Virus record (IMG/VR): IMGVR_UViG_3300035099_000039
Coordinates: 1-26,395 of that record
Source of the DNA: a virus
Reading direction: 5' to 3' (one strand)
Length of the DNA: 26,395 nt
In this document: positions 18,770 through 21,702 of the stretch, one piece after another
How positions within the stretch are numbered: position 1 is the stretch's first letter
Layout of the letters: each line of letters begins with the position of its first letter
Notes under the pieces: model-generated
Databases searched by the model: none
Told to the model about the DNA's origin: nothing
Seen by the model: the letters and a program-made list of their open reading frames with translations, nothing else
Made by a program: the position numbers and the translations under genes

Positions 18770-20113
18770 TTACGCGCGGGCAGCCAACGTAACAACCGTG
18801 CTGACGACCTGGCCGTTCGGCGTGGTGAGGCTTGACTGCCACCTGCTGTGGGCATCGCCCCACCAAATCAGCCTGAATACCTTCTCATTGTAGTCAAACC
18901 GCAGATGGTCGCTCTCGGCATAGTCAATACCGCGCGACCACTCGCCAACGAGATATTCCGTCGGGTCAAACAGAACGATGTCGCCCTCATCACCAACCGT
19001 CGGCAGTTTTTCCGTCAGGAGGACGGGCCGACCGTTGATGGTGCCGAGCGGAGCGCCCGCTACGCCGTTACCCGGCATCCACACAGGAACACCGCCAGTC
19101 CCGACTTTGCGGTGCAACGCGGCCAATTGCGGGTAGGCGTTGAGTCCTGCCAGCCAGATAGCCGATGCCTGGGAATCGGCGGGCATACTGGCCCACATCT
19201 CGTCAATGTTCGCCACCTCAATGGTGTCCGCCAGTTGCCCGTTTACCTTATTCACGGCCACCTTGCACGGCGAGTTGATGACGCCCAGAGGCTCGACCCC
19301 GCCGCCGCCGCGCAGCAAGAGGTAGTCGCGCTTGTACGCCAAGCCGCGCGAGAAGATGTCCATGAGTTCCGGCCCCAGACTGATGGGCGAGAACTGAAGC
19401 AACGACTGCTCCACAGCCGCCATCACGTATTGCTGATGCAGCGTCAACGTAACCGGCATGAAGGTTGGGCGCGTCGGTGACATTTGCGCTGTCGGCCGCA
19501 AGGCCGCAGGGATAACGCCGCCGTCCGTGCCGCTGGCGATGGCCCGCGTGGTCTCATTGATGGACACGAAGTTCGCCGAAATTGTGGACATTGGCCGCTT
19601 CGCCGCCAACGGATACACGACTTCGCGTTCCATCGTCTTCTTGAGTAATTCGGCGATGAACTCCGTCGGCATGGCGAACCCACCGAATGCGCCGGTCGCC
19701 CCGCTGAGTTCATCACTGCCCACCGTCTTGCTTCTCCAAATCCGCTGCCAGTTATCCAACGCCGGCGTGGTCACATGCTCTTGGCAGTGCATATAGATGG
19801 ACTTGAAGTACTCGCCGACGTGTTTGAACCCACCCTTGGGGTCGTCCTCATCGCGCGCTCGGACGTGTTGGATGATGGAGCGACGTTGGGCCACTTGCTC
19901 CTGGCGGGTACGCGCAGCCTTCTGGCGGAGTTCAGCCGCCCTTTGCGCTTCGTACTCTTCGGGAGTCTGCTTGACCGCAACGGCGTCACGCACCAGCTCA
20001 TCCGCATAGCCGGGTTCGACCTTGGCGAAATCGCCTTCCTTGGTCACGCTGCCGTCTTCGAGCGCGATGTCCGACATGAGCCAACGAACGCTTACGAGCG
20101 TATCTTGCGCCAT
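18770..20113 (-). CDS. Major capsid protein, HK97 fold
   Basis: The 447-residue protein carries an N-terminal extension (about 1-92) with charged helix (EYEAQRAAELRQKAARTRQEQVAQRR), expected to act as a built-in scaffold (delta domain). The mature part begins around PKGGFKHVGEYFKSIY. The core shows GGFAMPTEFIAELLKKTMER, strand pairs typical of the N-arm and E-loop region, a spine-helix region around MAAVEQSLLQFSPISLGPELMDIF, and GVEPLGVINSPCKV...EMWASMPADSQASAIWLAG, standard for this family. Residues 5-50 also resemble the SH3-like 71-residue protein encoded at 15902. GGAGA lies 8 nt before the ATG. Cleavage by the upstream-encoded protease is expected. Confidence 0.93.
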   Translation of the reverse strand: MAQDTLVSVRWLMSDIALEDGSVTKEGDFAKVEPGYADELVRDAVAVKQTPEEYEAQRAAELRQKAARTRQEQVAQRRSIIQHVRARDEDDPKGGFKHVGEYFKSIYMHCQEHVTTPALDNWQRIWRSKTVGSDELSGATGAFGGFAMPTEFIAELLKKTMEREVVYPLAAKRPMSTISANFVSINETTRAIASGTDGGVIPAALRPTAQMSPTRPTFMPVTLTLHQQYVMAAVEQSLLQFSPISLGPELMDIFSRGLAYKRDYLLLRGGGGVEPLGVINSPCKVAVNKVNGQLADTIEVANIDEMWASMPADSQASAIWLAGLNAYPQLAALHRKVGTGGVPVWMPGNGVAGAPLGTINGRPVLLTEKLPTVGDEGDIVLFDPTEYLVGEWSRGIDYAESDHLRFDYNEKVFRLIWWGDAHSRWQSSLTTPNGQVVSTVVTLAARA

Positions 20114-21575: not shown

Positions 21576-21590
21576 GGCACATACTCCTGC

Positions 21591-21628
21591 AAAAACGAAA
21601 AGGGCACCGGTCAACCGACCACTGCCCT
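21591..21628 (-). terminator. Intrinsic terminator between portal and protease
   Basis: On the minus strand AGGGCA (21628-21623) pairs with TGCCCT (21606-21601), continuing inward through a G-G mismatch and a U-G pair to GGTC/GACC around a GGTT loop: a 12-position stem with one mismatch. It is followed at once by TTTCGTTTTT (21600-21591). Its 5' arm overlaps an alternative hairpin in the upstream element, so it is likely conditional. Confidence 0.75.
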
Positions 21629-21689
21629 ACCAGTGTCACCCCTGTTTCCCGCGTAGGGGCGGGAACCGTGGCCGTCGCCACACAGGGGT
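21620..21689 (-). ncRNA. Three-way-junction RNA with kissing-loop antiterminator candidate
   Basis: Directly after the portal stop the mRNA can form P1 (ACCCCTGT with ACAGGGGT, 8 bp), which encloses P2 (GTGGC-GACG-GCCAC) and P3 (TTCCCGC-CCCTAC-GCGGGAA), joined by GG. All 20 pairs are Watson-Crick. Two bases later comes hairpin H4 (CACTG-GTAGGG-CAGTG). The 6-nt loop of H4, GTAGGG, is the exact complement of the P3 loop CCCTAC, so the two can kiss as in the TAR/TAR* complex. H4 shares bases 21620-21628 with the terminator stem, so H4 plus kissing excludes termination. Reading this as a regulated attenuator or antiterminator is inference; the pairings are directly visible. Element class not recognised. 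Confidence 0.7.
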
Positions 21690-21702
21690 TAGCTATTTGT
21701 TG

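Follow-up and report, generated by a model that had tools for sequence, protein, structure and literature searches.

The RNA encoded between the portal and the prohead protease genes of the virus studied here is predicted to fold into a three-way junction (3WJ) followed by a sequence with the features of an intrinsic terminator, and the whole element is housed in the 127-nt gap that separates the portal stop codon from the protease ATG. The analysis covered an IMG/VR virus record, and the window is the whole stretch of 26,395 bp that was analysed. As the best explanation, to which we give about an even chance, we propose that the element is an internal terminator of the late operon, which gates the capsid genes and is passed by read-through or antitermination.

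Location and Structure of the Element

The main genes of the window are carried by the minus strand, which is also the coding strand of the element (Table 1). The start of the protease (MPLP) agreed with an alignment with the homologue in the related contig L003. The P1 stem of the 3WJ starts 13 nt behind the portal stop codon; at the other end of the element, 15 nt lie between the T-tract and the protease ATG. As only these 15 nt separate them, no promoter fits between the T-tract and the protease ATG. Moreover, a consensus scan of the minus strand from 22346 to 21575 did not reveal any sigma-70-like site. Thus, with neither space nor a site for a promoter behind the terminator, the protease and capsid genes would need read-through, if the terminator works.

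Table 1. Genes and RNA features of the portal–protease region, in minus-strand order (positions in the window).
Feature	Position	Strand	Evidence or remark
Terminase small and large subunit genes (terS, terL)		-	PHROGs
Portal gene, 490 aa	21703..23175	-	Upstream of element; PHROG portal families, best E 9e-53
Three-way junction (3WJ)	21638..21689	-	P1 8 bp, P2 5 bp, P3 7 bp
P1, 8 bp	21689-21682/21645-21638	-	Sequence, folding
P2, 5 bp, loop GACG	21681-21668	-	Sequence, folding
Junction nucleotides GG between P2 and P3	21667-21666	-	
P3, 7 bp	21665-21646	-	Sequence, folding
P3 loop CCCTAC	21653..21658	-	Sequence; exact complement of H4 loop
Hairpin H4, CACTG-GTAGGG-CAGTG	21620..21635	-	Prefix folding; possible transient antiterminator
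H4 loop GTAGGG, 6 nt	21630-21625	-	Sequence
Intrinsic terminator hairpin, AGGGCA.TGGTC-GGTT-GACCG.TGCCCT	21601..21628	-	-19.6 to -19.8 kcal/mol
T-tract TTTTCGTTTTT	21591..21601	-	First T pairs with A21628
Protease ribosome-binding site AGGAG	21584..21588	-	Sequence; 8 nt upstream of ATG
Head maturation (prohead) protease gene, 418 aa	20319..21575 (ATG 21575)	-	PHROG head maturation protease, E 3.5e-11
Major capsid protein gene	18770..20113	-	Next downstream; PHROG major head protein, E 3.5e-21
Head-tail adaptor gene		-	PHROGs

The sequence-only reading of the window had described a 3WJ with stems of these lengths, a hairpin (H4) whose whole loop is exactly complementary to that of P3, and a strong hairpin followed by TTTTCGTTTTT, and all of these were found on the minus strand. 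The 3WJ leaves zero unpaired nucleotides at P1/P2 and at P3/P1, and P1 is joined to H4 by a connector of only 2 nt. The stem of the terminator consists of 11 bp (6 bp, one G.G mismatch and 5 bp) closed by a GGTT loop. Bases 21620-21628 belong to both H4 and the terminator, so that, as had been claimed, the two structures are mutually exclusive.

Elsewhere in the window, at 1955-1990 on the minus strand, a promoter was seen that matches the sigma-70 consensus perfectly (TTGACA-16-TATAAT) and also has a TG ahead of its -10 box. Its -35 box lies within an inverted repeat (CTTGACA-acttg-TGTCAAG), and it is located upstream of ORF 1935-1570, which by eye resembles a gene for a small DNA-binding protein; the promoter is possibly self-regulated.

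Stability and Terminator Features

The 3WJ alone folded with an energy of -33.0 kcal/mol (z -4.0), which was equalled by 1/2000 dinucleotide shuffles, and the terminator alone (z -4.7) was equalled by none (0/2000). The folding z-score was -4.1 for the whole 112 nt and -3.15 for the 126-nt region. In terms of raw energy, the region ranked about fifth among 1315 sliding 112-nt windows of the GC-rich minus strand. Since a few other minus-strand windows match its raw energy, stability alone does not make the region unique.

A GC-rich hairpin with a short loop, followed by a U-rich tract, as in the sequence definition of an intrinsic terminator, is present at 21628-21601. A terminator scan of the minus strand of the window found four sites, of which the one at 21601-21628 was the sole compact, near-perfect hairpin followed by a run of T. 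The T-tract is interrupted by CG and the terminator stem contains a mismatch; given both, the efficiency of termination may be modest.

Competition between H4 and the Terminator

Owing to the overlap of H4 with the terminator, the terminator and antiterminator folds are mutually exclusive, as in an attenuator, and the sequence-only reading had taken the element for a candidate attenuator. A self-contained switch of this kind would work by the pairing of the P3 loop with GTAGGG, either as kissing loops or as a pseudoknot, which would sequester the 5' arm of the terminator and let the polymerase pass, the outcome being decided by a ligand, a virion protein or the speed of the polymerase. In favor of such a switch, the complementarity of the two 6-nt loops is exact and uses both of them fully, and H4 precedes the terminator in sequential folding: the minimum-energy folds of the 92- and 104-nt prefixes contain H4, and the terminator replaces it from 108 nt on. 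Purine-class transcriptional riboswitches are known to use a similar competition of strands (PMC9756952).

The loop pairing is also rare in simulations. Kissing pairs were defined by stems of >=5 bp, loops of 6-8 nt and >=6 Watson–Crick pairs between hairpins within 100 nt. They occurred at a mean of 0.37 per shuffled 26-kb window (in 14/60 shuffles), and in the real 26-kb window the only pair was that of the element. When the loops and the linker were randomised with the stems and the terminator kept fixed, an equally good pair was reached in 0/100,000 trials, and weaker pairs in 4 to 73/100,000, depending on the criterion. This rarity makes the pairing at the element unlikely to have arisen by chance. 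However, as the scan of 26 kb carries a large look-elsewhere effect, the pairing is just suggestive.

Several observations argue against switching. The energies were estimated at -5.3 kcal/mol for H4, about -8.1 kcal/mol for the loop duplex and -19.6 kcal/mol for the terminator, which is thus favored by about 6 kcal/mol over H4 with the kissing pairs. Since the terminator outweighs the two together, any switch must be kinetic. Additionally, the duplex energy of the 100-nt leader with the 5' arm of the terminator was no better than that of shuffled leaders, both in the window and in nine other protease leaders, and a general antiterminator in the leaders of protease genes was rejected on these grounds. 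The geometry is also demanding: with a connector of 2 nt between P1 and H4 and the P3 loop lying 7 bp past the junction, kissing would be strained and would require P3 to bend back toward P1, whereas a pseudoknot of the P3 loop with an unfolded GTAGGG would be sterically easier. Finally, the element is known from one sequence, the search for homologues was negative, and the nearest relatives do not have it (see below). What stands of the attenuator reading is an intrinsic terminator between the packaging and the head genes that excludes H4; its switching part is unsupported, and we regard a self-contained attenuator as unlikely. That the element represents a new cis-acting attenuator of late operons, in which a loop of the 3WJ and that of a transient antiterminator hairpin kiss and thereby delay the terminator to time capsid production or to respond to a signal, seems quite unlikely.

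It is also conceivable, though in our judgement as improbable as the attenuator, that the element serves in the processing or stability of mRNA. The 3WJ and the hairpin would then stop nucleases or be cleaved themselves (in an RNase III-type reaction), giving separate portal and capsid mRNAs of differing stability, and the U-rich stretch would aid the binding of ribosomes to the protease message. The high stability of the structure in the gap fits such a role, as does the position of the U-rich stretch just upstream of the ribosome-binding site. However, a GC hairpin that runs directly into a T-tract is the hallmark of a terminator, and processing would not require the T-tract.

Relatives of the Element and of the Surrounding Genes

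In line with the sequence-only reading, which had recognised no described class of RNA, the search of the whole window against Rfam at E <= 10 gave no family; the sole match (11 bits, E 5.6) was on the opposite strand and was attributed to chance. Rfam names obtained at other loci, namely miRNA at L062 and L066 and Chlorobi-1 at L112, were rejected as being below the gathering scores. When 2.9 million viral contigs were scanned by DNA pattern, no homologue of the element was found: five matches to the P3-loop/GGTAGGGC pattern and three to the CACTGGTAGGGCAGTG pattern were ascribed to chance, and none of them had the 3WJ-terminator layout when refolded. A covariance model (R1), which was a single-sequence model built on two copies of the element, returned only self-hits and chance matches across 119 sources. 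Among 392 genomes from the L093 phylum, it had a single match (per-genome E 7e-4), which was an ordinary terminator lying antisense to the likely adjacent genes. The covariance search, which had been proposed as a check of the attenuator, thus yielded zero homologues across the 119 sources and 392 genomes. Judged by its sequence, the element would appear to be an orphan structured terminator and not yet a new class of regulatory RNA.

The portals closest to that of the window (40-44% identity) were those of L002, found in a single-sequence portal scan, and of L003 and L004, added by portal alignments. A single-sequence protease scan of viral contigs and a portal alignment scan of bacterial genomes each gave no relative. 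The element was sought in L002, L003 and L004 and was not present in any of them. The portal–protease gap of L003 is 24 nt long and contains the ribosome-binding site alone, and that of L002 apparently contains small open frames, with structure that was within chance. As all three relatives do without it, the element is dispensable for a head module of this type. The portal of the window does not have the MuF-like C-terminal extension that is present in all three relatives (490 aa versus 732-744 aa in L002/L003); the CxxC-rich end of this extension is typical of MuF domains, to which we putatively assign it by sequence. In L002, a complete tRNA-Thr(CGT) gene, CCA included, was found within the portal open reading frame (L002:3151-3226), in the linker that joins the portal to its C-terminal extension, where it is read through in frame.

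The portal extension of relatives that are without the element, and the few other windows of equal raw stability, would fit a chance fold of a GC-rich spacer left by the loss of a MuF-like extension, the terminator-like hairpin being incidental, but the shuffles (1/2000 for the 3WJ, 0/2000 for the terminator) and the location of the strand's sole compact, clean terminator in this very gap argue against it, and we consider it very improbable.

Terminators near Homologous Protease Genes

Protease homologues were gathered from 80 loci of viral contigs and 27 loci of bacterial genomes. Strong terminators (-18 to -34 kcal/mol) were present near homologous protease genes, mostly just upstream. In viral contigs, they were located near the protease start (L047, -27 kcal/mol; L064/L065, -21.8 kcal/mol; L080, -33.8 kcal/mol), overlapped the script-called start (L077, -34.3 kcal/mol) or preceded the gene by 210 nt (L017, -18.0 kcal/mol). 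In bacterial genomes, they were seen near the protease gene in L093 (Planctomycetes) and in L107, L112, L117 and L119 (Chloroflexi), and a similar strong terminator lay ahead of the protease in all four of the loci L142-L145 (Chloroflexi). Such counts are confounded by the intergenic position, and no enrichment figure is offered as proof. The genes upstream of the terminators in L112, L117 and L142-L145 look host-like, and these terminators may serve simply to end the transcription of those genes; for L142-L145, where the upstream gene resembles one for a 2'-5' RNA ligase, a plain gene-end terminator appears equally likely. In cultured phages with related proteases, the portal–protease gaps were a few nucleotides long or held another gene, with no annotated spacer.

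Some of these loci showed features of their own. In L064 (2760-2940), a near-consensus promoter (TTGCAA-16-TATAAT) lies ahead of the strong terminator that closely precedes the protease gene, together with a short ORF (Met-Arg-Tyr-stop) that has a ribosome-binding site; it is possibly a leader-peptide attenuator or a small RNA gene. L112 (3095-3270) and L117 (3180-3360), both from Dehalococcoidia, have in common a TTGACA/TATAGA-like promoter that overlaps an inverted repeat, a leader of about 130 nt with an almost identical 3' part, and the strong terminator ahead of a protease-capsid gene pair. In L142-L145, such a pair has host-like neighbors, which in the two loci read (L142 and L145) resemble by eye genes for a 2'-5' RNA ligase and a uracil-DNA glycosylase; the pair looks vertically inherited, and is possibly a domesticated phage or a cluster resembling a gene-transfer agent.

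Discussion

In long operons of mobile elements, spurious transcription is known to be suppressed by internal terminators that act together with processive antitermination (PMC8955417, PMC11658703), and the passage of such terminators by means of processive antitermination is established in conjugative elements and lambdoid phages (PMC8955417, PMC11658703, PMC9378689). The element resembles the conAn system of pLS20, canT of Tn916 and the N/Q systems of λ in that a GC hairpin with a U-tract is located between genes of the same operon, with no promoter behind it, which leaves the downstream genes dependent on read-through (PMC8955417, PMC11658703); in contrast to them, it has a stable 3WJ ahead of the terminator.

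The similarity to HK022 put, which the sequence-only reading had suggested, is limited to a structured nascent phage RNA in a termination context. The put RNA is about 70 nt long, has two stem-loops, is located downstream of early promoters, binds the beta' subunit of RNA polymerase and acts on remote terminators (PMC9378689), whereas the element is a 3WJ of the late operon with its own terminator. As both the layout and the place differ, a put-like antiterminator is unlikely, and membership in the put group was rejected for an RNA with a 3WJ between the portal and protease genes. With riboswitches of the purine class the element shares a three-way junction with a competing terminator behind it, but it has no Rfam match, the loops of P2 (GACG) and P3 (CCCTAC) show no mutual complementarity, and the proposed kissing targets a downstream hairpin.

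According to the explanation that we prefer, a functional intrinsic terminator would act within the late packaging-head operon, directly ahead of the ribosome-binding site of the prohead protease gene. We infer that polymerases coming from terS, terL and the portal gene would halt in part at this terminator in vivo, and that only those that read through would make the capsid genes; the simplest cause of read-through would be resistance conferred by processive antitermination of phage or host origin. The terminator would thereby block stray transcription of the capsid genes and determine how much packaging protein is made relative to head protein. As the portal stop codon is 13 nt upstream of P1, a ribosome that terminates there should not occupy the 3WJ, and the 3WJ most likely holds the nascent RNA folded and free of ribosomes, so that the terminator would form reliably. 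The kissing of H4 with the P3 loop may slow the formation of the terminator and, if there is any regulation, tune the read-through.

No terminator or attenuator between portal or protease genes and capsid genes was found described among the listed titles and abstracts of open-access papers. The presence of terminators by homologous proteases across unrelated viruses and bacterial lineages suggests that such a layout is possibly commoner than has been noted. Late operons of phages are usually pictured as giving a single uninterrupted transcript. If the terminator works, the dosage of head proteins would be set by transcriptional read-through, and if the kissing-loop switch were true as well, the element would represent a new type of RNA attenuator, one that controls virion assembly genes.
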